DNA of 29,096 nucleotides from a virus: positions 1-29,096 of the IMG/VR virus record IMGVR_UViG_3300031612_000050; one strand, 5' to 3'. A program made the position numbers and the translations under genes. The notes under the pieces are model-generated. The model worked only from the letters and a program-made list of their open reading frames with translations. It had not been told where the DNA came from and ran no database searches. Below are positions 6,743 through 25,724 of this stretch, piece by piece. Every line of letters begins with the position of its first letter. The first letter of the stretch is position 1.

Positions 6743-6873
6743 CAACGTAGATGGATGTGAATAATGTATATGGAGATGGAGGCAAGACCTCTTACCAAGA
6801 TATATAAGCTGCGCATAATTCTTACTCAACGGTCGTTAAGTTAAATTTTAATATCTAATAGGAAAATAGCAAA

Positions 6874-7989
6874 ATGGCTAATTATACTTCTACAGGCCCT
6901 AAGGGCAAGAATGCTGCCGCTACTACCGAAAAAGAAGACTTGGCGAACTTTATCTCGATGATTACTCGTGATGAGACTCCGTTTACTTCTTCTATCGGTA
7001 CTTCGAAAGCATCCGCAATCTTTCACGAATGGAACACTGACGAACTAGATACTGTTCGACAGTCTACTGTTGCTGAAGGAACTGACATCGGTTCTACTTT
7101 TCAGAACCCAGATGCTCGCGCCCGTTTGGGCAACTATACTCAAATCAACTCCAAGCAACTTAAAGTTTCTGGCACTAAACGTGCTGTAGACCAAGCTGGT
7201 GTAGCTGATGAGTATTCTTATCAATTGAAGAAGCGTGGCACAGAAATGCGTCGTGACTTGGACATCCATGCAACTAGTTATGTTGGTGGTTCTACCGCTG
7301 CTGGTACTGATGCTGGTGCTAACTCTGGTGGTGCTATCCGTCGTGCAGCTGGCTTCTTGTCATTTGTAGACTCTGGTAACGTTACTAGTGCTGCAACTGT
7401 TGCTGGTACTGGTGATGGTGATGGTACTATCTCTGCTACTGGTGGTGCTACTGTAATGCCTGTAGCTGCTACTGGTACTAACGCTGTTGTCTTCGGTAAG
7501 CTTGAGTTATCTCAGGTTGACGAAACTATGCAGAAGATCTATGAAGCTGGTGGTAAAGCCACTAAGCTAATGGTATCTCCTTCTCTTCGTCGTGAGTTCT
7601 CTGCCAAGGCACAAGCTGCAGGCGCTACCACCTCTACTGGTGCTGGTTCTGTAGGTAATGCTCGTCGTTCTGTTGACGATGGTAAGTTACGTCAGTCAGT
7701 TGAGATGTACATGTCAGACTTCGGTGACATCATGGTTGTACCTAACTACTTGATGGGTCTAGCACCTAAGCAAGTGACTGGTTCTTCTGATGCTTCTGGT
7801 TTTGCTGCTGCTGACTCTACTGCTTTGATCTATGATCCAATGTGGTGGAATGTTGCTACTCTACGTCCTATGCAGGAAGTAGATGTAGGTCAGCAAGGTG
7901 ACTCTACTGTCGGCCTTATGGTCGAGGAAGTTACCTTGGAATGCCGTAACCCTAAGGGTTCAGGCGTTATCGTTGGTCTGATTAAGTAG
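6874..7989 (+). CDS. Major capsid protein, SU10/DUF5309-like
   Basis: The coat subunit forms the icosahedral or prolate shell. It has 371 residues, a normal HK97-fold size. Near the N-terminus DLANFISMITRDETPFTSSIG (within 22-42) followed by HEW (51-53) matches the pattern I know from the SU10-type capsid family (formerly DUF5309). Residues about 150-205 form a glycine/alanine/threonine-rich insertion, probably a surface domain. Codon use (GGT, GCT, CGT, TCT) is more biased than in neighbouring genes, as expected for the most highly expressed protein. It follows the scaffold region and a structured leader and ends just before a strong terminator. Confidence 0.9.
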   Translation: MANYTSTGPKGKNAAATTEKEDLANFISMITRDETPFTSSIGTSKASAIFHEWNTDELDTVRQSTVAEGTDIGSTFQNPDARARLGNYTQINSKQLKVSGTKRAVDQAGVADEYSYQLKKRGTEMRRDLDIHATSYVGGSTAAGTDAGANSGGAIRRAAGFLSFVDSGNVTSAATVAGTGDGDGTISATGGATVMPVAATGTNAVVFGKLELSQVDETMQKIYEAGGKATKLMVSPSLRREFSAKAQAAGATTSTGAGSVGNARRSVDDGKLRQSVEMYMSDFGDIMVVPNYLMGLAPKQVTGSSDASGFAAADSTALIYDPMWWNVATLRPMQEVDVGQQGDSTVGLMVEEVTLECRNPKGSGVIVGLIK

Positions 7990-8003: not shown

Positions 8004-8044
8004 AACCCTACGGGTAAATTAAGTTTTACCTGTAGGGTTTTTTT
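8004..8044 (+). terminator. Strong intrinsic terminator after the capsid gene
   Basis: The 15-nt arm 8004-8018 (AACCCTACGGGTAAA) pairs with 8025-8039 with a single G-U pair and a 6-nt loop, followed directly by seven T (8038-8044). It would end most capsid transcripts, yet co-directional genes continue downstream with no clear new promoter, so partial read-through or antitermination is implied. Confidence 0.9.
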
Positions 8045-8363: not shown

Positions 8364-9080
8364 ATGTCTTTAAATATACCTACTAACTCTCACTCTACTT
8401 ATGCAGCATATAAAGTAGCCCACCCTGCATTGATTAGTTTAGTCGATGATGTGCGTGACTGGTTAAACCGTGATGAGGATGTAGTTTCAAATAATTTGAT
8501 TGGCTCTTTTATGCAAAAAGCTGCTGATAATAGCTATAGAGAATTACGTATACCACCACTAGAAACAACACTAAGTATTACTGTCACTTCAGCCAATGCT
8601 ACGGCTAATGAATTACCAATACCCGGTAATTTTACAGAACTTATTCGTTTAAGTAAAGTTAAAACAGCTACTACATTTGATGTGTATAACGATAGGGTAG
8701 AATTAGCTGTATTTGATGATGAAACTGTGGCAAAGCCTAGTTATCGTTATTTTGCCCGTAAAGGGGTTAACTTTAAAATATACCCTGCAGTATTATTAAA
8801 TGAAGTCTATGAAGTACATTATTATAGGCGCTTATTTGCCTTAGATGCCCTTACAACAGGCACTAGTGAAGAAATATATAACTGGCTTCGTGATGATAAT
8901 GAAAAAGCCTTTTTGTTTGGCACCCTAAAGTTTGCTAGTATTTACTTGGCTGATATGGCAGGTGCTGAGAACTATGGTAAATTATTTGACAATGAAATTA
9001 AAACACTCAATGCTGAAGAGAAACAACGTTTGTCCCGAGGGGCTAATTTGCGGTCTGTATTCTCAACAAAATTAATTTAA
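8364..9080 (+). CDS. Head-tail connector (adaptor) protein
   Basis: A 238-residue protein fitting the phage adaptor family that forms the ring beneath the portal. It has a helical N-terminus (ALISLVDDVRDWLNRDED, about 22-39), then a beta-rich core with ELPIPGNFTELIRL (83-96). A pattern of aromatic strands follows (YRYFARKGVNFKIYP, then YEVHYYRRL), and the C-terminus is helical (about 180-225). The combination of 'LP..F.EL.RL' and a later 'Y...Y.R' strand is typical of podoviral gatekeeper/adaptor proteins. AAGGAG precedes the ATG. It is placed between coat and tail genes. Confidence 0.7.
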   Translation: MSLNIPTNSHSTYAAYKVAHPALISLVDDVRDWLNRDEDVVSNNLIGSFMQKAADNSYRELRIPPLETTLSITVTSANATANELPIPGNFTELIRLSKVKTATTFDVYNDRVELAVFDDETVAKPSYRYFARKGVNFKIYPAVLLNEVYEVHYYRRLFALDALTTGTSEEIYNWLRDDNEKAFLFGTLKFASIYLADMAGAENYGKLFDNEIKTLNAEEKQRLSRGANLRSVFSTKLI

Positions 9081-9090
9081 GGGGAATATT

Positions 9091-10239
9091 ATGCCTAGTA
9101 ATGGATTAGCTATAGGCGGTGCCTTTGCAGTTGATAATAATGCCAATATGCTGGCAATATCTACTACTGTTGATGATGCAATAGCTGCAAAATTAGCAGC
9201 ACAAGCTGCACAAGCTGCCGCCCTGGTATCTAAAAATGCCGCTGCTGCTAGTGCTACAGCTGCACAATCAAGTGAAGATGATGCCGCAACAGATCTAGCA
9301 TTAACAAATGCAGACGTAGTATTAACTCATGCAGACGTAGTACTTGCTGAAGCGGATAAAGTTCAGACAAGTGCTGATAGGGTTGCAACAGCAGCTGACC
9401 GAGCAGCTATTGTAACATTGTATGACACTTTTGATGACAGGTATTTAGGTACTAAGTCCTCAGATCCTTCAGTAGATAATGATGGTAATGGGTTGTTAAC
9501 TGGTGCTATTTATTTTAATAGTTCAGTTAACCATACTAAATTTTATAATGGTTCATCTTGGGAAGACCCAGAGGCAACTGCTACTTCAGGTGCAAGCACT
9601 GCAACTGCCAAAGCTTCTGTGGCCACTACTAAAGCCTCAGAATCAGCTGCATCTGCTACCGCTTCTGCCAACTCTGCTACTGCCGCTGCTAACTCCGCTT
9701 CTGGTGCAGCCAATGCAGCCAACTCAGCAGCCGCTAATAAACTAGCCTTAGCTGGAGGTTCATTAACAGGTGCTGTTACTACTAACTCTACTTTTGATGG
9801 GAGAGATGTATCAACTGATGGTACTAAACTAGATGGTATAGAAACTAGTGCTACAGCAGATCAAACAAATGCAGAGATTCGTGCAGCAGTAGAAGCTGCT
9901 AGTAATAGCAATGTATTTACAGATGCAGAAAACACTAAACTAAATGGTATAGAAACTAGTGCTACAGCAGATCAAACAGGTGCGCAGATTAAAACCGCAT
10001 ATCAAGCTGAAACTAATGCTTTTACAGATGCTCAATTTACTAAGCTAGCAGGTATTGCAGCTAGTGCTAACAATTATTCTCACCCATCTAACCATGCTAT
10101 ATCTGTAATATCTGGACTACAAGCAGCATTAGATTCTAAAACTACAACTAGTGCAGTTAATACTTCAATTAGTAACCTATCAACAGTATATGACCCCATT
10201 GGTGCTTCCGTAGCAATGGCAATAGCCCTAGGAGGTTAA
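9091..10239 (+). CDS. Tail fibre protein with alanine-rich stalk and 37-residue repeat
   Basis: The N-terminal quarter is an alanine-rich heptad-like coiled coil (about 25-110, including the repeat LTNADVVLTHADVVLAEADKV). A small globular piece follows (GAIYFNSSVNHTKFYNG, about 137-153), as in fibres that hang from podoviral tails. A second Ala/Ser-rich stalk leads to LALAGGSLTGAV, a motif shared with two other fibre proteins here. Next come two near-identical copies of a segment with GIETSATADQT, 37 residues apart. The role is host attachment or spacing of the adhesins that follow. It opens the fibre cluster; AGGGG precedes the start. Confidence 0.8.
   Translation: MPSNGLAIGGAFAVDNNANMLAISTTVDDAIAAKLAAQAAQAAALVSKNAAAASATAAQSSEDDAATDLALTNADVVLTHADVVLAEADKVQTSADRVATAADRAAIVTLYDTFDDRYLGTKSSDPSVDNDGNGLLTGAIYFNSSVNHTKFYNGSSWEDPEATATSGASTATAKASVATTKASESAASATASANSATAAANSASGAANAANSAAANKLALAGGSLTGAVTTNSTFDGRDVSTDGTKLDGIETSATADQTNAEIRAAVEAASNSNVFTDAENTKLNGIETSATADQTGAQIKTAYQAETNAFTDAQFTKLAGIAASANNYSHPSNHAISVISGLQAALDSKTTTSAVNTSISNLSTVYDPIGASVAMAIALGG
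9823..9978 (+). repeat. 45-bp direct repeat, 111-bp period, inside the fibre gene
   Basis: 9823-9867 and 9934-9978 are identical except for one base (G9832 against A9943). The period is 37 codons, so the reading frame is kept and the fibre could lengthen or shorten by unequal recombination without disruption. Confidence 0.85.
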
Positions 10240-10242
10240 CCA

Positions 10243-10566
10243 ATGGCCAATACATTTAAAAACGCTGGTATTGCAATAGGTACGTCCCGTACAACGTTAT
10301 ACACAGCACCAGCTAATACTCAGTCTGTTATTCACGCATTGTACATATCAAACATTGATGGTGTTAATGATGCTACCGTAACAGTTGAAGTGACAATAGA
10401 TGGTGGTACAACATATCGTCATATTTGTAAGACAGTACCTGTACCAGCAGATGCTACTTTGCTGCTTGATAAACCTATAAACTTAGAAGCTGGGGATATT
10501 CTTGGATTGACTGCATCTGCCGCAGGTGATTTAGAAGTGTTCGCAAGTGTCTTAGAGATTGCTTAA
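10243..10566 (+). CDS. Small beta-sandwich virion structural protein
   Basis: A 107-residue product that reads as alternating beta strands (VIHALYISNIDG, ATVTVEVTIDGG, THR-rich turns, ILGLTASAAGDLEVFASVLEIA). It resembles a small structural protein common in marine podovirus tail regions, probably decorating a fibre or the tail. It begins 3 nt after the preceding stop, with a strong AGGAGG at the very end of that gene, so expression is coupled. No signal peptide or catalytic motif. Confidence 0.65.
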   Translation: MANTFKNAGIAIGTSRTTLYTAPANTQSVIHALYISNIDGVNDATVTVEVTIDGGTTYRHICKTVPVPADATLLLDKPINLEAGDILGLTASAAGDLEVFASVLEIA

Positions 10567-10577
10567 GGAGATAATTT

Positions 10578-11075
10578 ATGTCCTATATAGGCCATGTCGA
10601 TGGGTTTGCATCAGTCCAAGCAGCATTAGCAAAGTATAAATATATAGCAACAAACAATCAGACTACATTTACAGGTTCAGACTCTAATAGTAATACATTA
10701 GCCTATATACCTACTAATATTATTGTTACCTTAAATGGTATTGTGTTAGACGAAACAGATTTTACATCAACAAATGGTACTAGCATAGTTCTAGGCACTG
10801 GGGCTAGTACAGGTAGTGAGTTAGTTATACTAACCTTCAATGATTTTGTTCTGGCAAACCATTACACCCAATCTCAAAGTAATGCTTTGTACAAGTCTAT
10901 TTCTGCAGCAGAAGGTGGGCCAAGTTTGGGTACTAACTCAATCATACGTACTAATGCCAACACCATCAGTGAGAACATCACGATACCCGCCAATACTAAT
11001 GGTATGTCAGCAGGGCCGATAACTATCGCAAATAATAAGACTGTAACCATAGCAGGAACGTGGAGTATCGTATGA
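10578..11075 (+). CDS. Short tail-fibre adhesin, MSYIG type
   Basis: A 165-residue two-part protein. Residues 1-100 carry a beta domain starting MSYIG with TNIIVTLNGIVLDETDFTS, a pattern shared with the protein starting at 15212. The C-terminal part, GGPSLGTNSIIRTNANTISE through GPITIANNKTVTIAG, is paralogous to most of the protein starting at 12971. It ends with a 4-nt ATGA overlap into the next gene, and that gene's GGAG lies within it. The likely role is a surface-binding tip or collar of the tail. AAGGAG supports its own start. Confidence 0.7.
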   Translation: MSYIGHVDGFASVQAALAKYKYIATNNQTTFTGSDSNSNTLAYIPTNIIVTLNGIVLDETDFTSTNGTSIVLGTGASTGSELVILTFNDFVLANHYTQSQSNALYKSISAAEGGPSLGTNSIIRTNANTISENITIPANTNGMSAGPITIANNKTVTIAGTWSIV

Positions 11076-11599
11076 GTACACTAACGCTTAAAGAACTATC
11101 TGCACCAGCAGGTGAAGTGATTAAGATTGCTGCTGGTAAGACACTTGACCTTCATTCACAAGGCACAACTAAAATGCCAGCAGGGTCAGTGATTCAAGTA
11201 GTACAGACTTACTCTGCAAATTCTTCTGCTGTTGCATCATCGGCATCATCTTTTGTAGCAACAGGAATCATAGCAACTATAACGCCTAAATATTCAGGAT
11301 CTAAAATACTTGTTAGCTGGTCTAACACTATGAATAATTCGGGAGAGGCTAGGGCGAATATGTACATAAGAATTGGCTCTGGCTCTTATGCTGCTATGGC
11401 AGGAGCAAGTTCCTACCATTTAGCGTATGCACAAGGAAGCTCCAACGGATATGGCCCTCAAGTGTTTAATGGTAACTATACAACCACTAGTCTTAATGCT
11501 CTGTATTTTCAACCATACATATACGCTGATAGTGGAACATATAATTTCATTCACGCTAACTCTTCTTATGCCCTCACATTAACGGAGGTTGCCCAATGA
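11072..11599 (+). CDS. Short tail adhesin, VIQVVQ/TLTE type
   Basis: I place the start at ATG11072, inside the upstream stop (ATGA), because GGAG at 11062-11065 is six bases before it; an in-frame GTG at 11060 overlaps that site. The 175-residue product has an anchor-like N-terminus (MSTLTLKELSAPAG), then GSVIQVVQ, a strand ATITPKYSGSKILVSW, and a terminal ALTLTEVAQ. The same order (VLQVV, ITP, SKILV, TLTEIAG) recurs in the protein starting at 12438, so the two are paralogues. This pattern is common in marine phage fibre proteins. Probable beta-sandwich receptor-binding module. Confidence 0.7.
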   Translation: MSTLTLKELSAPAGEVIKIAAGKTLDLHSQGTTKMPAGSVIQVVQTYSANSSAVASSASSFVATGIIATITPKYSGSKILVSWSNTMNNSGEARANMYIRIGSGSYAAMAGASSYHLAYAQGSSNGYGPQVFNGNYTTTSLNALYFQPYIYADSGTYNFIHANSSYALTLTEVAQ

Positions 11600-12114
11600 C
11601 TTCTAAATTAAAAACAGATGTCCTTGAGACAGTTTCAGGCAGTGGCACGATAGCATTGAATAACCAGTTGTCTGGTATGACGAGTGCTAGTTTGCCTAGT
11701 GGATTGCAACAGGCGTTTCACGCTCACAACAACGGACAACAGAGCGTTCCTACTACCACTACAACAAAGATACTGTTCCAAACAGAAGCATTTGATGTTG
11801 GAGGTAACTTTGCTTCATCTAAGTTTACTGCACCTAGTGCGGGTAAATATTATCTGTACGCATCATTAATGCTTGGCGCCATCCCTGACCAAAACTTTGC
11901 CAATATTATAATTAAGAAAAATGGAAGCGTTGAGCAAGCATATGCAACAGTCAGAAATAGTGGCGCAAGCTATAGAAGTTTAGAAACAAATGTAATCGTT
12001 GATGCAGCAGTTAATGATTATTTTGAAGTCTTTTTATATAACAATGTTGCTACTGTTGTATGGACAAATGGAACAGGAGCTTATTCACACTTTGGTGGCT
12101 TCAAACTACTTTAA
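11596..12114 (+). CDS. Short tail adhesin with C1q-like domain
   Basis: A 172-residue protein. The N-terminal anchor SKLKTDVLETVSGSGTI is typical of marine phage fibre proteins. It is followed by a C1q/TNF-like jelly roll (about 40-172) with FHAHNNGQQSV, FQTEAFDVGG, SKFTAPSAGKYYLYASL and a terminal FGGFKLL. Such domains trimerise and bind carbohydrate or protein receptors. A 4-nt ATGA overlap and GGAGG link it to the preceding adhesin. A second C1q-like protein begins at 14220. Confidence 0.7.
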   Translation: MTSKLKTDVLETVSGSGTIALNNQLSGMTSASLPSGLQQAFHAHNNGQQSVPTTTTTKILFQTEAFDVGGNFASSKFTAPSAGKYYLYASLMLGAIPDQNFANIIIKKNGSVEQAYATVRNSGASYRSLETNVIVDAAVNDYFEVFLYNNVATVVWTNGTGAYSHFGGFKLL

Positions 12115-12134
12115 TTTAAAACAGGATAACACTC

Positions 12135-12428
12135 ATGACCGATAAAGTCGCAGCATTACAAGCCCTAACACCAAGCGCCCAATGGGTCTTACGTGGAGAT
12201 GAATTAGAGTGGCTTGACACAGAACAAACTCAACCAACTGACTCAGCTATTGCAGCTAAGATTGTTGAACTACAAGCAGCCTATGACGCAGCAGCATACG
12301 CCCGTGACCGCCAAGCAGCCTACCCATCTATCCAAGATTGCATCCATGCCTTGCTTGATGGTGGAGCTACCTTGACTGACCTACAGGCTCTACGAGCAGC
12401 GGTGAAGTCAGCTAATCCAAAGCCATAG
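12135..12428 (+). CDS. XkdW-like small tail protein, possible fibre chaperone
   Basis: A 97-residue protein with SAQWVLRGDELEWLDTEQTQP (about 14-34), an alanine-rich helix (AKIVELQAAYDAAAYARDRQ) and the ending YPSIQDCIHALLDGGATL...VKSANPKP. The order 'W..rg.....WLD..QT.PT' then 'R...YPSI.D..hAL' is what I know from XkdW-like proteins found beside phage fibre genes. A role as a fibre assembly helper is likely but unproven. It follows an adhesin after 20 nt and precedes another. Confidence 0.65.
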   Translation: MTDKVAALQALTPSAQWVLRGDELEWLDTEQTQPTDSAIAAKIVELQAAYDAAAYARDRQAAYPSIQDCIHALLDGGATLTDLQALRAAVKSANPKP

Positions 12429-12437
12429 GAGTAGATT

Positions 12438-12974
12438 ATGACTACAACTATAACGGGTGCTACTGGCATTGATAATATACAGGCAGCTACGGGTGCGGTG
12501 TTGCAAGTTGTTAGTTCAACTTTAAAAAGTGCTGCTGCTATTACATCTAACTCAACTAATACTTTTGTATCTTTAGGTTTATCTGCGGCTATTACTCCCA
12601 TATCAACGTCCAGTAAAATACTTGTTGAAGTAAATATGACTGTTGGATTCTCTGCGGGAACTTTTCATTTTAGAATTGCAAGAGGGAGTGACCAAACTAT
12701 TTGCATTGGTGATACTGGGCTAAGTAATCAACTTAGGTCTACAACTTCTCTTAGGGAGGAATCTACTCCATACACCCACTATACAGGTCAAGTTCCTATG
12801 AGTTTCTTAGACTCCCCTTCAACAACCAGTGCGACTACATATTCAGTAGTAGGTACGATTGGAGCCTCTTACGCTAACGCTGTTATGTATATTAACAGAC
12901 CTAACACCCAAGATAATGGTGACTACGATGCACGTGGCACTAGCACAATTACCTTAACGGAGATTGCAGGATGA
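12438..12974 (+). CDS. Short tail adhesin, VLQVV/TLTE type (paralogue)
   Basis: A 178-residue protein: anchor MTTTITGATGIDNIQAAT, then GAVLQVVSS, LSAAITPISTSSKILVEVN, a variable middle, and the ending STITLTEIAG. It matches the layout of the protein starting at 11072 from end to end while the receptor-facing middle (about 80-160) differs, as expected when duplicated adhesins diversify. AGGAG lies before the start, and an ATGA overlap leads to the next gene. Confidence 0.7.
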   Translation: MTTTITGATGIDNIQAATGAVLQVVSSTLKSAAAITSNSTNTFVSLGLSAAITPISTSSKILVEVNMTVGFSAGTFHFRIARGSDQTICIGDTGLSNQLRSTTSLREESTPYTHYTGQVPMSFLDSPSTTSATTYSVVGTIGASYANAVMYINRPNTQDNGDYDARGTSTITLTEIAG

Positions 12975-13216
12975 GCAGAGCAAGAAACATGGCGACTCTT
13001 CTGGATGCTGGCGGTGATGTACTGGCTAGCGCACTTGATAATGCATTAGGTGGCCCATCACTAGGTACAGCTTCAGTAGTAAGGACCAATGCCAAAGTAA
13101 TAGCAGAGAACATAACCTTTGCTGGTTCAGAAAATGGTATGACTATAGGGCCGATTACAGTGAACTCAGGGAAGACAGTAACAGTGGCCTCTGGGTCAAC
13201 GTGGGTGGTCTTATGA
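12971..13216 (+). CDS. Short tail-fibre module, GGPSLGT type
   Basis: An 81-residue protein: anchor MSRARNMATLLDAGGDVLAS, similar to the MTKARDLSLAS start of the protein at 19043. GGPSLGTASVVRTNAKVIAE through GPITVNSGKTVTVASG then repeats the C-terminal module of the protein starting at 10578. It contains little else and may be a stub fibre, a structural spacer or the remains of a larger fibre. ATGA overlaps occur at both ends. Confidence 0.65.
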   Translation: MSRARNMATLLDAGGDVLASALDNALGGPSLGTASVVRTNAKVIAENITFAGSENGMTIGPITVNSGKTVTVASGSTWVVL

Positions 13217-13605
13217 GTACAGTTAAAGCAAATGATTTAATGAATGTAGCTGGTGGCATTCCGACAGTGAAGTCACAGCAGTTGATACCTACAGCGTGGA
13301 TTAATTTTAGTGGTCTAAATACAATATCAATCCGTGACTCAGCAAACATTAGCAGTATTACCGACATAGCAACAGGAAAATATCGGGCTACATTTGCCAC
13401 AGCAATGGCTAATGCTAACTGGGCTTGCGCTATGGCTTGTGCCTACGAAACTGCCCTTGATGCTAATAACTCTAACCCTAATAGAGATGCACATCCGTAT
13501 ACTCAAACTACGACTTTTATAGAGATTGCTACTATATTTACAGGCGACCGAGCTCATTATGACGCTGATGACATTAACGTCATTATCATGGGAGGCCAAG
13601 CATAA
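13213..13605 (+). CDS. Short tail adhesin, MSTVKAN type
   Basis: A 130-residue protein from ATG13213, which overlaps the previous stop; an in-frame GTG at 13201 would add four residues but has no site of its own. Anchor MSTVKANDLMNVAGG, then AWINFSGLNTISIRDSANISSITDIATGKYRATF, and a polar, aromatic middle. The same series (AWVAFNGSNTVSI..YNVSSITDIGTGKYRV) appears in the next gene, so they are tandem paralogues. The ribosome site is only GGGTGG, so coupling to the upstream gene probably matters. Unknown receptor-binding fold. Confidence 0.65.
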   Translation: MSTVKANDLMNVAGGIPTVKSQQLIPTAWINFSGLNTISIRDSANISSITDIATGKYRATFATAMANANWACAMACAYETALDANNSNPNRDAHPYTQTTTFIEIATIFTGDRAHYDADDINVIIMGGQA

Positions 13606-13997
13606 TGAGTACAATTAAAGCTAACACCCTCCTCCACTCAGACGGCAGCACAACTAATCCCCCAAGTATTCCAGCGTTAGATAAGCGTATGGCTAAGGCT
13701 TGGGTAGCATTCAATGGAAGTAATACAGTATCAATTGATAAATCTTATAACGTCAGTTCAATTACAGACATTGGCACAGGCAAGTACCGTGTAAATATAA
13801 GCCCCGTCATGTCTGATGCTAATTACGTTTGGGTAGGAACCGCGATGAAATATACGAGTTGGTATCCATCCGTTGTTCAATATGATAACTCTGCGAGAAC
13901 AACAGCATACATTCCTGTGGGAATATCAGATGCTTACGGTGGTGGAGCTGGATGGACTGATTCCGCAGGCGTATCCATCGTAATATTCTCAACATAA
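13605..13997 (+). CDS. Short tail adhesin, MSTIKAN type (tandem paralogue)
   Basis: A 130-residue twin of the preceding gene, with the same length, anchor (MSTIKANTLLHSDG) and core strand pattern ending TDIGTGKYRVNI. The second half (YTSWYPSVVQYDNSARTT and onward) is unrelated by eye to its twin's, suggesting exchange or fast divergence of the tip. It shares one base with the upstream stop and has GGGAGG before it. Confidence 0.65.
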   Translation: MSTIKANTLLHSDGSTTNPPSIPALDKRMAKAWVAFNGSNTVSIDKSYNVSSITDIGTGKYRVNISPVMSDANYVWVGTAMKYTSWYPSVVQYDNSARTTAYIPVGISDAYGGGAGWTDSAGVSIVIFST

Positions 13998-14010
13998 TAG
14001 GAACAAACAA

Positions 14011-14220
14011 ATGAAAATCATATACGCAACAACAGATGGCATAGCAGTCATCACACCAGCCCCAAACTGTTCCTTAACTGATGCAGAGACTGCGGCTAAA
14101 GACGTACCAACTGGCTTGGCTTACAAGATTGTTGAAGATAGTTATGTACCTTCAGACAGGACATTTCGTAACGCATGGGCCATTGAAGCATCCGAGCTAA
14201 CGGATGGAGTGGGTGACTAA
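14011..14220 (+). CDS. Small fibre-associated protein (69 aa)
   Basis: MKIIYATTDGIAVITP, then AAKDVPTGLAYKIVEDSYVPSDRTFRNAWAIEA. The phrase 'DVP.G..Y.I......P.DRTFRNAW' is one I recognise from small proteins placed next to fibre genes in many phages and treated as assembly helpers of unknown function. AGGA lies before the start, and the gene shares one base (TAATG) with the following C1q-like adhesin, whose GGAG lies inside it. A chaperone role for the neighbour is inference. Confidence 0.65.
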   Translation: MKIIYATTDGIAVITPAPNCSLTDAETAAKDVPTGLAYKIVEDSYVPSDRTFRNAWAIEASELTDGVGD

Positions 14221-14690
14221 TGGCTACAGTAATACGAGGTGATGATAACTGGGATACTGCACTGAAAGCAGGGTCACAGGCATTTGCTGCTAGGTTTAAT
14301 GGTTCTGCTTGGCAAAGTCTTGCTAATGGCGTTGTCGTAGCTTTTAACGATGATTCCACAGGCGATTCTTTTGATGACGGGAATAACTTTTCCACCACCA
14401 CACATAAGTACACAGCCCCTACAACAGGCGTTTATCTGTTCTGGTTCGCTATTTATACTGCTCAAAATGACGTATTCAATGCTTTCGGCTTACTTAAGAA
14501 CTCAGCAAGGTTAGCCTTTCAATTTGCTGGTGATGAATACTTAGCAGTGAATTATAATGCAGATGATAAAATCTTATCTTGGTCAGGTGTTGTCCCTTTG
14601 TCAGCAGGAGATACTATTGCTGTTTACACTGCTGACCCAAGCGATGTATACACAGGCCATTCTCAATGGGGCGGCTGTCGCCTAAGCTAA
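14220..14690 (+). CDS. Short tail adhesin with C1q-like domain (second)
   Basis: A 156-residue protein beginning MATVIRGDDNWDT, another common marine fibre anchor. A jelly-roll pattern follows: VVVAFNDDSTGDSFDDG, KYTAPTTGVYLFWFAIY, LLKNSARLAFQF, then VPLSAGDTIAVYTADPSD and SQWGGCRLS. YTAPTTGVYLFW corresponds to FTAPSAGKYYLY in the protein starting at 11596, so the fold is shared but the anchor differs. Probable trimeric receptor-binding tip. Confidence 0.7.
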   Translation: MATVIRGDDNWDTALKAGSQAFAARFNGSAWQSLANGVVVAFNDDSTGDSFDDGNNFSTTTHKYTAPTTGVYLFWFAIYTAQNDVFNAFGLLKNSARLAFQFAGDEYLAVNYNADDKILSWSGVVPLSAGDTIAVYTADPSDVYTGHSQWGGCRLS

Positions 14691-14699
14691 GGAAACAAT

Positions 14700-14978
14700 A
14701 TGAATTACATTAATCAAAAAGTATGGGCAGATTCAAATAGCTCAGTATGGAAAGAGATAGTTTCTCGCTTTGGGCAAGCTGCTTATGATAATGAAGACAC
14801 TAGGGCTACTCACATGACTACCCTAAAGGGTGAGTGGGACGCAAAGGTTTACGCACGTTCACGCAAGGCCAAGTACGACTTACTCAACCAAGACGAGATG
14901 CGGTATGACGATTTAGTCAACTCAACAACCACATGGCCCGATGCCATAGCAGCAATTAAAGCGGAGTTTCCAAAATGA
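14700..14978 (+). CDS. Small fibre-associated protein (92 aa)
   Basis: A charged, largely helical protein (AYDNEDTRATHMTTLKGEWDAKVYARSRKAKYDLLNQDE) ending TTTWPDAIAAIKAEFPK. It follows a C1q-like adhesin behind AAGGA and overlaps the next small gene by 4 nt. The helical C-terminal part resembles fibre assembly helper proteins next to adhesins in other phages. I cannot name the family. Confidence 0.6.
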   Translation: MNYINQKVWADSNSSVWKEIVSRFGQAAYDNEDTRATHMTTLKGEWDAKVYARSRKAKYDLLNQDEMRYDDLVNSTTTWPDAIAAIKAEFPK

Positions 14979-15208
14979 GCATTACAGTAGACATGACAAA
15001 AGCAAAGGTAATTGCACACGATGCTCGTAGAGTCTCACGCAATAAACAGTTTGCACCCTTAGACGTTAAAGTCACTATACCAGCAGAAAAAGTAGCAGCA
15101 GAAGCAGCACGGGCAGTTATCCGAACTAACGATGCTGCACTTCAAGTGAGCATGGATGCAGCCTCAGATGCAGCAGCTTTAAAGCTATTAATGCCAGCAG
15201 GAGAATAA
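14975..15208 (+). CDS. Small fibre-associated protein (77 aa)
   Basis: It begins ITVDMTKAKVIAHDARRVSR, then KQFAPLDVKVTIPAEKVAAEAARA, and ends in an alanine-rich acidic helix. The opening 'VDMTKA..I..D..R..R...fa.LDV' is familiar from small proteins encoded beside phage fibres and assumed to help fold or attach them. GGAG lies within the upstream gene (ATGA overlap), and its own 3' end supplies AGGAG for the following fibre. Function is inferred from context only. Confidence 0.6.
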   Translation: MSITVDMTKAKVIAHDARRVSRNKQFAPLDVKVTIPAEKVAAEAARAVIRTNDAALQVSMDAASDAAALKLLMPAGE

Positions 15209-15211
15209 TAC

Positions 15212-15910
15212 ATGTCATACATAGGTAGAAGTGGAAAGGTTAGTCGCAAGACACAAGAGAAGATATCCTTCCTTGCCACTGCAGGACAAACAGTTAAGAC
15301 AGGTCTGAGTTATGTCGCTACCCTTGTAGAAGTAACTGTTAACGGTATCTTATTAACAGATGTAACAGACTACACAGCAACTAACGGAAACAGCGTCACC
15401 TTCACTGTTGCACTGGCCTTGAATGATGAAGTGACTGTTGTGTCCTTGAAGATCTTTACTGTTGCAGATCATTATACTAAGTCTGCCGCTAATACATTGT
15501 TAGCTGCTAAAGCTACCACTACTGCTTTGGCTACTACTACTACAACTGCCAACGCAGCACTACCAAAAGCTGGTGGCACTATGACAGGTGCAGCAATAGG
15601 TGCTGTTGTAGCACTTACAGATGCAACCAGCATTGCCACAAACCTGGCATTGAGCAACAACTACTCTGTCACCCTAGCTGGCAACCGCACATTGGCTAAC
15701 CCCACAAATACTGTAGCTGGTCAGTCTGGTTCTATATTTATCACACAAGACGGAACAGGCTCACGCACACTGGCCTACGGGACTAACTTTAAGTTCGCTG
15801 GCGGTACAGCCCCCACACTCAGCACAGCAGCAGCGTCCGTTGATCGGCTTGATTATGTGGTAGCAGCCGCAACCAAGATTCATGCGGTAGTGTCTTTGGA
15901 TGTGAAATAA
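15212..15910 (+). CDS. Tail-fibre protein, MSYIG type (paralogue)
   Basis: A 232-residue protein whose first 90 residues (MSYIGRSGKV, VTVNGILLTDVTDYTA) repeat the N-terminal domain of the protein starting at 10578. A Thr/Ala-rich stalk and the motif LPKAGGTMTGAA follow. The C-terminal beta domain (about 135-232, SNNYSVTLAGNRTLANPTNT, GSIFITQDGTGSRTLAYG) is of a kind often found as a head domain in marine phage fibres. AGGAG precedes the start; it shares one base with the next gene. Confidence 0.75.
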   Translation: MSYIGRSGKVSRKTQEKISFLATAGQTVKTGLSYVATLVEVTVNGILLTDVTDYTATNGNSVTFTVALALNDEVTVVSLKIFTVADHYTKSAANTLLAAKATTTALATTTTTANAALPKAGGTMTGAAIGAVVALTDATSIATNLALSNNYSVTLAGNRTLANPTNTVAGQSGSIFITQDGTGSRTLAYGTNFKFAGGTAPTLSTAAASVDRLDYVVAAATKIHAVVSLDVK

Positions 15911-18402
15911 TGGGCGTCTTAAACGAGAATCAATTATTGGGTGCTAGCGGTGCTGGCAGTTATGAGATAGAGCAGTCACTTAGGTTTAATGATGATGATA
16001 GTTCATATCTAAGTCGCACACCTAGTTCGGCTGGTAATCGTAGGACTTGGACTTGGAGTGGTTGGGTTAAGCGTAGTAATTTAGGAAGCTCAACTTATTA
16101 TTGTTTTTATGGTGTTGATGGTGTTTCTCCAAATGATAGAACAGAATTTACATTTTCGGCTGATGCTCTTCATATATATGAGGAGGTTTCAACAGCCACG
16201 ATTACTTTAACAACAACCCAATTATTTCGTGACCCATCCGCTTGGTATCATGTAGTAATAGCAATGGATACTACACAAGCAACTGATACTAACAGGGTTA
16301 AGTTGTATGTTAATGGCGAGCAGGTAACTTCATTCTCTGCCTCAACGTACCCGTCTCTAAACTATGACACAATTACTAATTCAGCAAAAGTACACGTTGT
16401 AGGTGCTAGGAGATATGCGGCTGGAACAACAAACAAATTCCTAGACGGCTACCTAGCAGAAGTAAACTTCATAGACGGACAAGCCCTAACACCAGATTCA
16501 TTTGGTGAGACAGGCGACTACGGTGAGTGGAAGCCTATAGCCTACGCTGGCACATACGGCACGAATGGTTTCTATCTTGATTTTGCAGACAGTAGCTCAC
16601 TGGGCAATGATGCGGCTGGTAGTAACAACTGGACACCTACGAACCTAGCAGCTACAGATCAGATGTTGGATAGTCCTACGAATAACTTTTGTACTTGGAA
16701 TCCGTTAGACAGTTATCTCACACCAGTATTATCGGAAGGTAATTTAAAGTTCCAGTTAAATACCGCACGATGCAGAGGTACAATAGCTTCTCAAGTCGAT
16801 GGTAAAATTTACTTTGAAGTTTACAATCCTACTCTTGTATCAAATAGTAATGTGCATCACATGGGTTTAGCATCCATAGGGTTAGACATCAATAACGCTA
16901 GTAACATGGAAAATGCGGCGGGCGGTGGTGCTACCATTTGGACGTATGCTAATGCAAATGGTCGAAGTATTTATGCTAGGCAAAACGGTAGCAATATAGC
17001 TACTGTGGCTCTGCCAAACCAAATTGCGGCTGGCGACATAATTGCTTTTGCTTCTGATTCTTCTACTGGCAAGGTTTGGATGTCTCAAAATAATTCATGG
17101 TTAAAGGCTAATGGCTCGTTTGATGGTTCTAACGCTTTATCTTCCTCAAACTATTTATTTCAACTAGCGACAGGGCATGAATTAACCCCACTGACAATGC
17201 CTTTAGGTTCAACACCATCTACTATTGGGGTGTTGAACTGCGGCCAAGATTCAAGTTTTGCTGGAGCAAAAACCCCACAAGGAAACCAAGACAGCAACGA
17301 CATTGGTGACTTTTACTACCCCGTCCCGTCTGGTTTCTTAGCTCTTTGCTCGGCTAATCTTGATACGCCCACTGTTATCCCTAGTGAGCATTTTAATACA
17401 GTCTTGTACACCGGCACACGGCAGAATAAAGTAATCTCTGGAGTAGGCTTTCAGCCCGATCTTATTTGGCTTAAAACCAGATCAACAGCTAGTAACCATG
17501 CTCTTGTTGATAGCGTCCGTGGAGGAGGCAAAGCTCTACAGCCTAGCACTACTTCTTATGAAAACCAATATGGCGCACAGGATGATAAAGTCACAGCATT
17601 TAGTTCTGACGGATTTAGCCTTGGGGTCGATGCTGGTGGTTATGGATTCAACGATAATAATTCTACCTATGTAGCATGGAACTGGAAAGCTGGCGGCGCA
17701 GCATCATCCAACACCAACGGCTCAATCACTTCAAGTGTGTCTGCTAACGTAGATGCTGGGTTCTCGATTGTTAGTTATACTGGAAATGGTACGTCTGGCG
17801 CTACAGTAGGTCATGGACTTACTTTAAAAATACCAGAATTAATAATAATTAAAAACAGAACCAAGTCAGGTGAAAACTGGGCGATTGGTATTGAAGGAAT
17901 TACTGGGGTATCTAATGATTCCCTAAAGTTTACTACTGAGGCCAGTAATGCTGGAACGGGCTATTTTGCAGGTTCTAGTTCATCCACTTTATTTACGTTA
18001 GGTAATGCAGCTAACAGTAACTTTAATACAAGTAGCCTTATAGCCTACTGCTTCCACAGCGTTGACGGCTACTCGAAGGTCGGCAAATTAGTTGGTAATG
18101 GAAACGCTGATGGGCCGTTTGTGCATTGCGGTTTCAGGCCAGCATGGGTGATGTGGAAACGCACTGACGCTGCCCAAGAGTGGCACGTTTTTGATACAGC
18201 AAGAGACGAGTATAATCCGCTAAATAAAGACTTATGGCCCCCTCATTCTAGTGCTGAATACACAGGATATGGTGGCCCTGTTGATTATTTGTCAAACGGA
18301 TTTAAATTTAGAACTAGCAGTGTAATTGCTAACGCAAGCGGTGGAACTTACATTTTTCTAGCATTCGCAGAAAATCCATTTAAACACACAAACGCAAGAT
18401 AA
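15910..18402 (+). CDS. Large LamG/DUF7483-like tail adhesin (830 aa)
   Basis: This is the longest protein in the window. An N-terminal concanavalin/LamG-like domain (about 20-200) shows SLRFNDDDSSYLSRTP, TWSGWVKRSN, WYHVVIAMDT and a KLYVNGEQV strand, then FLDGYLAEVNFIDG. A middle part (about 275-430) with GKIYFEVYNPT and IIAFASDSSTGKVWMSQNN looks SPRY-like. The C-terminal half, from VISGVGFQPDLIWLKTRS with VDSVRGGGKAL and YVAWNWKAGG, matches DUF7483 as I know it from marine viruses. Both lectin-like folds suggest glycan binding, so it is a good candidate for a main receptor-binding protein. Its ribosome site is weak, so start/stop overlap coupling may drive expression. Confidence 0.8.
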   Translation: MGVLNENQLLGASGAGSYEIEQSLRFNDDDSSYLSRTPSSAGNRRTWTWSGWVKRSNLGSSTYYCFYGVDGVSPNDRTEFTFSADALHIYEEVSTATITLTTTQLFRDPSAWYHVVIAMDTTQATDTNRVKLYVNGEQVTSFSASTYPSLNYDTITNSAKVHVVGARRYAAGTTNKFLDGYLAEVNFIDGQALTPDSFGETGDYGEWKPIAYAGTYGTNGFYLDFADSSSLGNDAAGSNNWTPTNLAATDQMLDSPTNNFCTWNPLDSYLTPVLSEGNLKFQLNTARCRGTIASQVDGKIYFEVYNPTLVSNSNVHHMGLASIGLDINNASNMENAAGGGATIWTYANANGRSIYARQNGSNIATVALPNQIAAGDIIAFASDSSTGKVWMSQNNSWLKANGSFDGSNALSSSNYLFQLATGHELTPLTMPLGSTPSTIGVLNCGQDSSFAGAKTPQGNQDSNDIGDFYYPVPSGFLALCSANLDTPTVIPSEHFNTVLYTGTRQNKVISGVGFQPDLIWLKTRSTASNHALVDSVRGGGKALQPSTTSYENQYGAQDDKVTAFSSDGFSLGVDAGGYGFNDNNSTYVAWNWKAGGAASSNTNGSITSSVSANVDAGFSIVSYTGNGTSGATVGHGLTLKIPELIIIKNRTKSGENWAIGIEGITGVSNDSLKFTTEASNAGTGYFAGSSSSTLFTLGNAANSNFNTSSLIAYCFHSVDGYSKVGKLVGNGNADGPFVHCGFRPAWVMWKRTDAAQEWHVFDTARDEYNPLNKDLWPPHSSAEYTGYGGPVDYLSNGFKFRTSSVIANASGGTYIFLAFAENPFKHTNAR

Positions 18403-18414
18403 GAGGAGAACCTT

Positions 18415-19041
18415 ATGTGGTTTGTAGGAAACACAGAATCAGGATTTGTCGTCAATAAGCCTCGTGGCTTGACCATTGATTCTATTCAATACCCAAGAAA
18501 CATCTTTGCTCTTTGGAGCAAGGCCGAACTAGCAGCTATTGGCGTTAAGCCATACAGCGAGACTAGATTAGACTCACGCTATTACAATCAGGGTGCGTTA
18601 ACTCGCACTGAATCAGATGGTGAGGTATTAGGCACTTATGCAAGCATTGATAAAGATGTGGCAACACTCAAGACTAATATGCTTTCAAGCGTTAAATCAA
18701 TCGCTGGCTCGTTACAAGCTCAAGTAGATTGGTATTGGTCTAGGGCAGCTAAAGGCGGTACAGCAGTACCAGCAGAAGTAGCTACTCACGCCACTGCTAT
18801 TTACACAGAAATGGTTTCTAAGGAGACTACCATAGCTGCATTGTCTGACTTAGCGGCTGTCATTGTGTATCAGAATACACCGATGGTAGAGACTCGTAAG
18901 GTCAAGCACACATCTGATGATGGTGTAGACACCTATGGGCCTGAAACTGAGACAAGCAATCGTGATGTGGATAACGTCACACATGGTTGGCCTAGTCTTG
19001 AAGAAGTAGATCCAGCGTTTGTAAGTTTAGTAGGAGAATAA
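18415..19041 (+). CDS. Fibre-associated protein, possible tail-fibre assembly helper (208 aa)
   Basis: The N-terminal half has YPRNIFALWSKAELAAIGVKPY (about 26-47), a pattern found in small proteins that accompany fibres. The centre (about 80-150) is a long helix containing DVATLKTNMLSSVKSIAGSL, and the C-terminus is acidic and polar. It has no membrane segment. GAGGAG lies 12 nt after the large adhesin. Position directly after that adhesin and before the S74 fibre suggests a chaperone or a bridging subunit; the evidence cannot separate these. Confidence 0.6.
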   Translation: MWFVGNTESGFVVNKPRGLTIDSIQYPRNIFALWSKAELAAIGVKPYSETRLDSRYYNQGALTRTESDGEVLGTYASIDKDVATLKTNMLSSVKSIAGSLQAQVDWYWSRAAKGGTAVPAEVATHATAIYTEMVSKETTIAALSDLAAVIVYQNTPMVETRKVKHTSDDGVDTYGPETETSNRDVDNVTHGWPSLEEVDPAFVSLVGE

Positions 19042-19042
19042 T

Positions 19043-20512
19043 ATGACTAAGGCAAGAGATTTATCATTAGCTTCAAAGCTACCCTTAGCTGGAGGAACAC
19101 TAACAGGTAATCTGGTCACAAAAGGTATCACCAGTGTCACCCTAGGTAGCAACAACCTTGTGGCTGGTTCGACTGCTGGAGATAGCATTACATCTGGGGG
19201 CAATGGTAATACTTTACTAGGCACTAACGCTGGTACTGCTGTTACGACAGGTGGTAATAACGTATCTGTAGGTTATAATTCTTTATCTAGTAATACTACT
19301 GCTGGCGCAAATGTAGCGGTGGGTTATCAGACGATGCTAACTAACATTACTGGAGCTGAAAATACTGCAATAGGGTATGAAGCTTTAAAGTTCAACACAA
19401 CAGGTAGTTACAACACTGCTTCTGGTTTGATGGCTTTAAAGGCTAATACAACAGGACTGTACAATACTGCGTCTGGTTACCATGCTTTAAAATCTAACAC
19501 CACAGGTACAGACAATGTTGCGGTTGGTGTGAGTACCTTACAAACAAACACCACTGGAATAAGAAACGAGGCATTAGGTAATGGCGCTTTGTATTCTAAT
19601 ACATCTGGTGGTAACAATGTAGGAATAGGTAGACAAGCCTTATATAGTAATACAACTGCTTCATCTAATATTGCGGTAGGTGGTAATGCTTTATTTGCTA
19701 ACACAACAGGCCCAAACAACACTGCTGTTGGTGGGACTGCTTTAATGTTTAACACAACGGGTTGGAACAATACGGCAACTGGTATGGAGGCTATGAAAGC
19801 TAACACTACAGGAGTCAATAACGTAGCTGCTGGTAAGGCTGCTTTACTTGCTAATACAACAGGTGGAGCTAATGTTGCTATTGGGTATCAGGCGTTAGAC
19901 GCTAACACCACAGGTACAGACAATGTTGCGGTTGGTAAGGATGCTATGACTACTAACACTACAGGCATCTATAACACTGCTTGCGGTCAAAATGCAATGT
20001 ATAGTCACACCACAGGAAATCGTAATTCAGGGTTTGGCTCTCACGCTCTATCTGGCACCACGACAGGCACTTACTGCACAGCGATTGGTTTTAATGCTCA
20101 GTCATCATCTGCAACAGCAAGTGAACAAATGACGTTAGGTGATGCAAATATATCTAATCTACGTTGCAACGATACCTCAATCTCTTCCCTGTCCGACTCT
20201 CGTGATAAAACATCAGTCATTGATTCACCTTATGGGTTAGACTTCATTAACACTGTTAGACCTGTACAGTTCTTATGGAATACCCGTGATGGTAACGCTA
20301 AAGATGGTTCTACTCGCATAGGCTTCTTAGCACAAGAGTTATTAGCAGCTACTAATGGCAATAACGCTACCCTTGACTTAGTTATGGATGATAACCCTGA
20401 CAAGCTAGAAGCTAAGTATGGCAACTTGCTACCTATAATGGTTCAAGCAATCCAAGAATTATCAACTCAAAACGCAGCACTCGCTGCACGTATAACAGCA
20501 TTAGAGGCATAA
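19043..20512 (+). CDS. Tail spike/fibre with 17-residue repeats and S74 intramolecular chaperone
   Basis: A 489-residue protein. Anchor MTKARDLSLASK and LPLAGGTLTG are followed by 16 tandem 17-residue repeats (residues 80-351; consensus ALxxNTTGxxNxAxGxx), which probably wind into a trimeric beta-roll or beta-helix stalk. The C-terminus is a Peptidase_S74-type intramolecular chaperone: SDSRDK (384-389), then YGLDFINTVRPVQFLWN, RIGFLAQEL and a coiled-coil end (TQNAALAARITALEA). In that family Ser at the SDxRxK motif (here S384) cleaves the chaperone off after trimer folding. AGGAG precedes the start. A receptor-binding spike is likely. Confidence 0.85.
   Translation: MTKARDLSLASKLPLAGGTLTGNLVTKGITSVTLGSNNLVAGSTAGDSITSGGNGNTLLGTNAGTAVTTGGNNVSVGYNSLSSNTTAGANVAVGYQTMLTNITGAENTAIGYEALKFNTTGSYNTASGLMALKANTTGLYNTASGYHALKSNTTGTDNVAVGVSTLQTNTTGIRNEALGNGALYSNTSGGNNVGIGRQALYSNTTASSNIAVGGNALFANTTGPNNTAVGGTALMFNTTGWNNTATGMEAMKANTTGVNNVAAGKAALLANTTGGANVAIGYQALDANTTGTDNVAVGKDAMTTNTTGIYNTACGQNAMYSHTTGNRNSGFGSHALSGTTTGTYCTAIGFNAQSSSATASEQMTLGDANISNLRCNDTSISSLSDSRDKTSVIDSPYGLDFINTVRPVQFLWNTRDGNAKDGSTRIGFLAQELLAATNGNNATLDLVMDDNPDKLEAKYGNLLPIMVQAIQELSTQNAALAARITALEA
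19280..20095 (+). repeat. Sixteen in-frame 51-nt repeats in the spike gene
   Basis: Each unit encodes 17 residues with NTTG near the start and NxAxG near the end. Units 5 and 13 share an identical 35-nt stretch (19494-19528 and 19902-19936), exactly eight units apart, while most other units have diverged at the DNA level. This points to recent copying or recombination inside the array. Confidence 0.85.
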
Positions 20513-20516
20513 CACA

Positions 20517-20726
20517 ATGGAATTAACAGCAGAAGAAATCGCAGCACATTACTCAGCTTGTGGTGATTCAGTAGCACTTATAAATGCTGGTAAGCCAGCC
20601 GATATGTCTGATGATGATTGGGTAGATACCTTAGCACGTAACAAAGAGCATTTAGTTCTTATGTTAGCTAAGGATTATTGGACTACTGAGAGCATGACTG
20701 CTATAACAGCAGCTTCTGCTGCGTAA
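20517..20726 (+). CDS. Small acidic protein after the spike (69 aa)
   Basis: MELTAEEIAAHYSACGDSVALINAG, then MSDDDWVDTLARNKEHLVLMLAKDYWTTE. The segment 'W.d...RN.eHL..M.akdYW' is one I recognise from small marine phage proteins next to fibre genes, with unknown function. It is mostly helical with no membrane span. GAGG near the end of the spike gene is nine bases before its ATG. It is the last gene of the fibre cluster. Confidence 0.65.
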   Translation: MELTAEEIAAHYSACGDSVALINAGKPADMSDDDWVDTLARNKEHLVLMLAKDYWTTESMTAITAASAA

Positions 20727-24426: not shown

Positions 24427-25724
24427 TGGCTAAAATATTTATACCAAATAATTTAACTAAACCCCAGTTAGATGCATTTAGAAGTATAGAAGTAGAACTT
24501 AATAAACTGTCTAGCAATGTTACCACAGGTGATGGTGCGCCTACTGTAGTTAGTAATCTGCAGGATGGTGCCTTCTACTATGATTACACCAATCTTAACT
24601 TGTATGTTTTTAGAGAATCTGATAACAGTTGGAAAGACTCCACTGCTGCAATAGCAGATAACATATATACCTCGGGTACTACAGAAATTGATGGGGCCAA
24701 GGTGGCTGCGGGTACTATTACTGCTAATAAGATTACTATAGCAGAGAATATAGCATTCACAGGAAGTACTTCTGGACTTATATTTGGTAAGACTTCATTA
24801 GCTGATACAACTGCTGGTTCCTTTTATGGTAAATCATTAGATGCTGCGGGTAACGCCATATCAGGATTTAATATATCTTCTGCAACAAGCGGTATTTATG
24901 CAGACAGCTCAGGTATTATGGCACTTAATAATGTTAGGCTATACACAGGTTCTGCGGGTACACCTTTACTATTGTTAAACCCGGGGACCTATGCCACTAG
25001 TATTGCTTCAGCTACTACTGTTATATCCGTAACAATAGTAGGGGCTGGTGCTGGCAACCAAAATAATATGGCATATAACTCGGGAACACAAGGTAATAAC
25101 CTTGGCTCTTCGGGGCAGGGTTCTTGGATTGAATTTTACAGTGGCCCTGTTGTAAGTGGTAGCGTAACTGGTAGTCTTTTAAATATTAGTGGTACTACCA
25201 GATTTATAGCAGCAGGGGGTGCAGCATCAACAAGCTATACAAGAGGATCAACCTCTGCTGTTACAGGCCCCGCAGGGCAAGCATCTTCACAGGCTAATTC
25301 AGCTGGTGCTGGATTAGGTCCTACTGAAAGTGGTAATACAACTGCCATAGCAGGGCATGGTTTCAGGGGTGGTGGCGGTGGTGGAGGCGGTGGTCAAGCT
25401 GATACTTATCCTTTAAAAAATACAGCAGTAACTAACATAGCAGCAGCTGGTGCCACAATAAGCCAACAATTTACAGTACCAACAAATACTCAGAGTGTTA
25501 AAGCCTTTGTGGGTACTGGAGGTAGCGGTGGTGCTGGTGGTAATATAACTTACACTTACCTCCAAGGTCCAGAACAAAACGTAATCACAGGTGCTTCATA
25601 TTCTGTTAGAGGTGGTAATGGTGGTAATGGTTATATATCCATTGCAGATCCTAATTCAGGTGGTATAGAGGTTGACTTAGTTGCACTAGTTAACAGGGTA
25701 ACACAGTTAGAAACTAACCATTAA
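24426..25724 (+). CDS. Glycine-rich tail fibre/receptor-binding protein
   Basis: A 432-residue protein. The N-terminal part (residues 1-75) has PNNLTKPQLDAFRSIEVELNKL and DGAFYYDYTNLNLYVFRE, a fibre-type attachment domain. Collagen-free stalk segments follow (GTTEIDGAKVAAGTITANKI). From about 195 onward it is glycine-rich: VISVTIVGAGAG, a run of nine glycines, then GTGGSGGAGG and RGGNGGNGY. It ends in a short coiled coil. Poly-glycine sandwich adhesins bind hosts through loops between the glycine strands. It directly follows the nozzle, with AGGAGG inside that gene. Confidence 0.7.
   Translation: MAKIFIPNNLTKPQLDAFRSIEVELNKLSSNVTTGDGAPTVVSNLQDGAFYYDYTNLNLYVFRESDNSWKDSTAAIADNIYTSGTTEIDGAKVAAGTITANKITIAENIAFTGSTSGLIFGKTSLADTTAGSFYGKSLDAAGNAISGFNISSATSGIYADSSGIMALNNVRLYTGSAGTPLLLLNPGTYATSIASATTVISVTIVGAGAGNQNNMAYNSGTQGNNLGSSGQGSWIEFYSGPVVSGSVTGSLLNISGTTRFIAAGGAASTSYTRGSTSAVTGPAGQASSQANSAGAGLGPTESGNTTAIAGHGFRGGGGGGGGGQADTYPLKNTAVTNIAAAGATISQQFTVPTNTQSVKAFVGTGGSGGAGGNITYTYLQGPEQNVITGASYSVRGGNGGNGYISIADPNSGGIEVDLVALVNRVTQLETNH

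Follow-up and report, generated by a model that had tools for sequence, protein, structure and literature searches.

The 29,096-base virus record IMGVR_UViG_3300031612_000050 (the window; an incomplete viral fragment) carries, at positions 9091-20726, a rack of short genes that is probably a host-recognition island: free-standing lectin-like tips, together with chaperones for their assembly, that recombination at conserved junctions would exchange. What is new is how the rack varies: slots, anchors and helper genes are kept, while tip bodies are exchanged. Between the head-tail adaptor and the lysis region there are 19 co-oriented intact open reading frames (ORFs), one more than in a preliminary description of this DNA, which had correctly put most of them below 240 residues (16 of the 19 are). 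Genes are designated below by their first base.

The variation is clearest in comparison with the congener L272 and with L195 (the two are 99.5% identical over 7.2 kilobases (kb)), which carry the same slots in the same order as the window. (Congeners are phages with coat proteins at least 91% identical.) Across the head genes and the start of the fibre (6.7 kb), window and L272 share 84.6% DNA identity. Within the rack, similarity is confined to blocks: 10178-11148 (79.5%), 11595-11697 (84.5%), 12123-12515 (90.9%), 12946-13314 (94.6%), 13588-13768 (76.2%), 13999-14242 (88.9%) and 14842-15589 (80.9%). Between these blocks, that is, over most of each adhesin body, window and L272 have no detectable DNA match. 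The blocks cover helper genes and gene ends and reach 8-55 codons into the next adhesin, except for the last of them, which extends about 126 codons into 15212. Some junction blocks are closer than the backbone (up to 94.6% vs 84.6%), as expected if the junctions recombine. The proteins divide in the same manner: the first 30 residues are 24-27/30 identical to L195 in all but one of the five tip slots compared (slot 6 has 12/30), and the remainders of the tips 14-43% (in slot 1, 27/30 and 28%). The helpers 12135 and 14011 are about 93-95% identical to their L195 counterparts; 14700 is itself divided, its N-terminal half 16% and its C-terminal half 80% identical.

The exchange extends to the fold. 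Slots 2 and 6 hold a C1q-like body in the window and a VLQ body in L272/L195, each on the same anchor. The slot-2 anchor MTSKLKTDVLETVSGSGTIAL carries VLQ in L195, L193 and L152; in other phages, the slot-6 anchor type MATVIRGDDNWDT bears tips of the VLQ or AWV class or unassigned ones. An IRGxDNFD-type anchor is found in 14 proteins, with C1q (3), VLQ (4), AWV (3) and unassigned (4) bodies. The preliminary description had proposed a modular rack of interchangeable adhesins and a comparison with sister genomes; that comparison bears the proposal out, congeners keeping slot order, helpers and anchors and differing in the adhesin bodies. Phase-variable switching of the invertase type was also considered and rejected, for lack of suitable inverted repeats: none flanking alternative ends were found, and the inverted repeats of the rack are short, imperfect and scattered. 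As to a diversity-generating retroelement, none of the window's genes stood out as a reverse transcriptase, in a fragmentary record and with no dedicated search. The adaptor diverges faster than the head genes: those of L006 are 98-100% identical to the window's and its adaptor (L006 6279-6995) 69%, which places a recombination border between coat protein and adaptor.

The small genes interspersed among the adhesins are not distributed at random. Profiles were built for each part, and 265 loci were gathered with adaptor, DUF7483, VLQ, AWV and C1q queries together with isolates. A VLQ gene is followed by CH1 93 times (label-shuffle mean 12.6, maximum 24), AWV by CH2 63 times (8.1, 15), CH2 by CH3 46 times (4.2, 11) and DUF7483 by CH4 59 times (5.6, 13), counts that are inflated by kinship among the loci and measure a pattern, not independent events. 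AWV is never followed by CH1, nor VLQ by CH2. The loci were picked by adhesin and not by partner, so that the pairing is no product of the sampling: far beyond chance, every class of adhesin is followed by a small gene of its own. In 59 of 70 loci CH4 follows closely on DUF7483, and a relative of 15212 directly precedes DUF7483 in 49 of the 71 loci with room. The window's CH2 and CH3 genes, 14011 and 14975, are the halves of a single 139-residue protein in L030 and L068; in the window, L101, L188, L190, L195 and L196 a tip and its CH1 gene stand between the two.

The small partner genes are, by analogy with known systems, likely assembly chaperones with only partial client specificity. V22 gp27 is an experimentally demonstrated downstream fibre chaperone (PMC7289586). 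Pam3 gp25 combines a variable client-binding N-domain with a conserved helical C-domain, and its client fibre has a TNF-like domain (PMC9608196). The pair of TNF-like fibre (gp24) and chaperone resembles the arrangement here, and 14700 has the variable-N/conserved-C pattern of gp25 (12135 is conserved throughout); Pam3, however, has a single fibre, not a rack (PMC9608196). Gp38 of the Puniceispirillum phage HMO-2011 shares its N-terminal half with 12135, and its C-terminal half is Pfam Phage_tail_APC (47.5 bits against a cut-off of 26.6). The latter family is matched weakly by 5 of 15 CH4 family members, and the CH4 protein of L195 matches PHROG 4912, tail fiber assembly (E=8.6e-7). For neither CH1 nor CH4 did profile searches bring up a solved chaperone with matching sequence. 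The preliminary description had taken the small genes as chaperone-like. The partner pattern favors this, but 20517 (20517-20726) lies outside the rack: relatives that have long fibres and no rack conserve it too, and it may be part of the lysis genes or go with the S74 spike. (In the Roseobacter phage CRP-7, its homologue follows an S74-type fibre.)

What do the adhesins look like? Most rack proteins fall in tail-fibre or virion families in a PHROG scan, and the adhesin classes that had been noted as repeated are confirmed by Pfam, PHROG and sequence motifs: two C1q, two MSYIG, two VLQVV (VLQ) and two MST(I/V)KAN proteins (the AWVNF or AWV tips), and GGPSLGT, the latter at the C-terminus of 10578 and in 12971. 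So are the LamG/DUF7483 adhesin and the S74 spike (E=1.5e-114 and, for Peptidase_S74, 2.4e-8); the spike has 17-residue repeats (51-nucleotide repeats in the DNA). The C1q-like tips score E=1.2e-4 and 1.7e-4, just short of the curated Pfam cut-off, and tblastn with one of them, 14220, found no match in phages. The model of the VLQ tip 12438 (predicted local distance difference test (pLDDT) 87.8) is a predicted TNF/C1q-like jelly roll. Its closest solved structures are TNF-like lectins and their relatives (9ib7, PLTL: Z=13.8, root-mean-square deviation 2.1, 124 residues aligned), and trimeric TNF-like lectins match it at Z 13-14. The VLQ tips are predicted TNF/C1q-like lectins that may form trimers and bind glycans. 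C1q and VLQ tips thus appear to belong to one class of fold, a possible reason why both are served by CH1. For the AWV tip 13605 (pLDDT 85.3), tailspike and fibre tips head the structural list (phiAB6, Z 8.2; Pam1, 7.2; AP22 gp53, 6.4; R1 pyocin, 5.1), without sequence match; profile searches of the PDB with AWV, CH1 and CH4 gave no significant match.

Several of the short proteins match only the C-terminal ends of long PHROG fibres: 12438 corresponds to residues 531-707 of 708, and the tip of 10578 to residues 3268-3319 of a 3319-residue fibre. Because the match is restricted to those ends, the short proteins look like separately made tips. Likewise, 12438 has a homologue in the C-terminal part of orf22 of PDB 9efk (18 chains; profile E=4.7e-40), a solved assembly in which a VLQ-type domain thus forms the end of a longer protein. 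That some rack domains are the C-termini of long fibres elsewhere could also be read to mean that the short ORFs are decaying remnants of one or two long fibres, the more so as L101 fuses a 9091-type shaft with YIG and tip domains and several congeners have long fibres. This is most improbable. Each gene has its own start, most with a Shine-Dalgarno sequence; of the VLQ ORFs in the 265 loci, 172/186 stand alone (up to 260 residues), and of the AWV ORFs, 203/220. L101 has the same six-gene order as 13213-15208, and the six gene pairs have ratios of nonsynonymous to synonymous substitution (dN/dS) of 0.10-0.36 by a simple counting method, at synonymous divergences (dS) of 0.8 to 2.7 that are partly saturated: purifying selection. 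On this selection and the conserved order, a fragmented single fibre was rejected. The AWV tips are least conserved in their C-terminal halves (25-33% identical to L101; N-terminal halves, 62-66%). The same intact ORFs recur in the same order in L272, L195, L188 and L101 (gene calls in the relatives are automatic longest-ORF calls), which disposes of the decaying copies that the preliminary description had allowed for. Nor do relatives carry the same region as one fused fibre that is frameshifted only here: the long fibres of congeners are a different gene set.

At this locus either of two architectures is found. Among congeners it is present in the window, L002, L009, L271 and L272, and L003 has its start; L007/L274, L004/L005 and L267 have a few longer fibres at the same locus. 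(As an aside, the coat protein ORF is split in L008/L274, coat gene 6812-7926.) Long fibres predominate in a wider group (coat proteins about 50-56% identical). Counting the congeners too, 39 loci extend 5 kb or more beyond the coat gene; 35/39 have an ORF of more than 500 residues and 5/39 have at least three stand-alone tips. L188 and L191 carry the rack behind another head gene (major head protein PHROG 267, vs 1328 in the window), and phmmer finds no match between their head proteins and those of the window; the rack thus crosses phage lineages. In 9/9 loci a VAMAIAL/VALAIAL fibre end is followed by the B107 gene, while the fibre N-terminus differs between lineages. The kept C-end and B107 suggest that the rack relies on the first fibre's distal end. 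The 9091 fibre matches fibre gp28 of P-SCSP1u (E=1.5e-5); B107 (dN/dS 0.03-0.06) has homologues in HMO-2011, HTVC010P and HTVC026P.

How might such a rack work? The following is proposed: 1) After the proximal fibre (9091) and B107 (10243) come roughly nine separate proteins, lectin-like tips or carriers of tips, as well as the DUF7483 adhesin and the S74 spike, the genes probably co-expressed as one polycistronic unit. 2) The tips, with their short N-terminal anchors, would attach through these to fixed sites on tail or fibre, the interspersed small genes providing chaperones for particular tip classes. 3) Conserved helper genes, gene ends and anchors would serve as homology for recombination; because the junctions supply it, a single tip body could be replaced at a time, even by one of another fold. 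A bolder version, somewhat less than an even bet, sees the anchors as plugs shared between phages, with about ten lectins displayed combinatorially on each particle and lectin folds swapped slot by slot between lineages; if true, host range would be graded and could evolve quickly, with no need of long fibres.

Are the sites in fact fixed? The tips could instead compete for a few shared docking sites, so that particles would show subsets and a clonal burst would be mixed in host range. Fibre positions are few in a podovirus, the two AWV tips have similar anchors (MSTVKAN/MSTIKAN), and a single anchor type is found on many bodies. But the anchors vary from slot to slot, and most of them keep to their slot and its place in the order, which suits fixed sites, and no invertible repeat system is seen; competition is the unlikely alternative. 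Still less likely is that these are decorations of capsid or neck, or intracellular proteins, rather than receptor-binding tips. C1q/TNF-like folds and B107-like proteins could decorate capsids, but the position after the fibre, the homology to C-terminal ends of tail fibres, the chaperone-type partners and the hypervariable bodies argue otherwise.

Several points weigh against a host-recognition island of chaperoned tips. The tips are known here from their genes, and we infer their presence in virions and their docking sites. The structural matches of the AWV tip are middling (Z 5-8). The window's CH1, CH2 and CH3 proteins themselves match no chaperone family in family scans. Finally, 12135 (CH1) is about 95% identical to its L195 counterpart although the fold of the slot-2 tip differs, and since the partner is conserved where the fold has changed, its specificity for the tip body is not absolute.

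The features of the rack are collected in the table. Intergenic gaps run from -4 to +20 nucleotides, four-base or one-base stop/start overlaps are frequent, and a Shine-Dalgarno-like sequence precedes nearly every gene; ATG codons at 11072 and 13213 are better starts than two GTG codons called earlier. The region has no DNA-level match among the sequenced phages of the collection searched. Scans of the rack for promoters and terminators gave chance-level results only; a strong terminator-like hairpin (8004-8039; 15 pairs, T-run) lies upstream, directly 3' of the coat protein gene. Outside the rack, a 432-residue Gly-rich protein (24426-25724) with no match in family scans shares only its first 63 residues (73%) with a relative of at least 802 residues in L093 (contig 3300021089_000025); to judge by sequence, it is a further case of an anchor with a swappable body.

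Table. Genes of the rack and its upstream border
Feature	Position	Strand	Basis
Head-tail adaptor, upstream rack border	8364..9080	+	PHROG 2941, E=5.7e-22
Proximal fibre/shaft, Ala/Ser-rich repeats, C-terminal end STVYDPIGASVAMAIALGG	9091..10239	+	Tail-fibre PHROGs
B107, 107 residues, directly after fibre	10243..10566	+	PHROG 1276
YIG domain and GGPSLGT tip	10578..11075	+	PHROG; fused to shaft in L101
Slot 1: VLQ (TNF-like) tip, anchor MSTLTLKE	11072..11599	+	Profile family
Slot 2: C1q-like tip, anchor MTSKLKTDVLETVSGSGTIAL	11596..12114	+	Pfam C1q
CH1 partner, likely assembly chaperone	12135..12428	+	PHROG 9114; VLQ-CH1 pairing
Slot 3: VLQ tip, predicted TNF/C1q-like jelly roll	12438..12974	+	Structure model, profile
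GGPSLGT tip, MSRAR anchor	12971..13216	+	81/81 identical in L195
Slot 4: AWV tip	13213..13605	+	PHROG 11355 tail fiber, E=7e-18; dN/dS 0.17 vs L101
Slot 5: AWV tip, conserved N-half, variable C-half (column entropy)	13605..13997	+	Structure model
CH2 partner of AWV tips	14011..14220	+	AWV-CH2 pairing
Slot 6: C1q-like tip, anchor MATVIRGDDNWDT	14220..14690	+	Pfam C1q
CH1-type partner, N-half exchanged with slot-6 body, C-half conserved	14700..14978	+	
CH3 partner	14975..15208	+	Second half of CH2-CH3 protein; dN/dS 0.10
YIG-anchored protein preceding DUF7483 adhesin	15212..15910	+	
LamG/DUF7483 adhesin, 830 residues	15910..18402	+	PF24299, E=1.5e-114; PHROG virion structural protein, E=2.3e-182
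CH4 partner of DUF7483, likely assembly chaperone	18415..19041	+	Downstream pairing
S74 spike, C-terminal self-chaperone domain	19043..20512	+	PF13884, E=2.4e-8; PHROG virion structural protein; CRP-7 homologue

The usual models of fibres have one or two long fibres with an exchanged end; here the tips are separate genes, a natural example of heterologous tip exchange that suggests how such viruses may change hosts piece by piece. That the same anchor of 13 to 35 residues bears different folds in different phages makes plug and socket directly testable, and isolates with the same parts exist (HMO-2011, P-SSP7). The partner rule (VLQ-CH1, AWV-CH2/CH3, DUF7483-CH4) gives names, and tests, to many "hypothetical" genes of marine phages.

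The architecture has precedents: a comparable rack is present in HMO-2011, and tail-fibre islands of marine phages, with C1q genes, were described in 2014 (PMC3909814). These metaviromic islands are host-recognition regions that under-recruit metavirome reads and hold genes for tail fibres and their assembly, C1q, lectin-like proteins and XkdW; slot order, anchors with exchanged folds and the pairing of partners are not described in the part consulted (PMC3909814). The window corresponds in two respects: its rack is hypervariable against an 84.6% backbone, with other fibre sets in congeners, and it has tail fibre, C1q/lectin-like and fibre-assembly genes. For slot order, anchors with exchanged folds and class-specific partners, no description was found in the literature, of which coverage was incomplete.

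Among isolates, the nearest by head genes is CRP-7 (portal 56%, adaptor 29%), a short-tailed phage (PMC6918029). It has the same S74 C-terminus and the 20517 homologue, but two long tail proteins (1166 and 803 residues) take the place of the rack. Genes 037-041 of the Prochlorococcus phage P-SSP7 are tandem VLQ genes followed by a CH1-type gene; P-SSP7, however, is a T7-like phage with four VLQ tips only. (A VLQ tip also occurs in L100, Limnohabitans phage DC33, PQ492659.1, filed under Inoviridae; at 39 kb and with an endolysin gene, its taxonomy looks wrong.) The closest likeness is to gp28-gp43 of HMO-2011 (NC_021864), which infects SAR116: a fibre ending in AVAMAIAL, then B107, YIG, AWV, VLQ, CH1-like, CH3-like and C1q genes, in which nine stand-alone tips form a single run and bear the annotation tail fiber or C1q. 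HMO-2011 belongs to a different phage group, has five AWV copies and has no DUF7483 match within the stretch examined; the window shares with it the succession of fibre, B107, YIG and short tips with partner genes, and is in that sense an HMO-2011-like rack.

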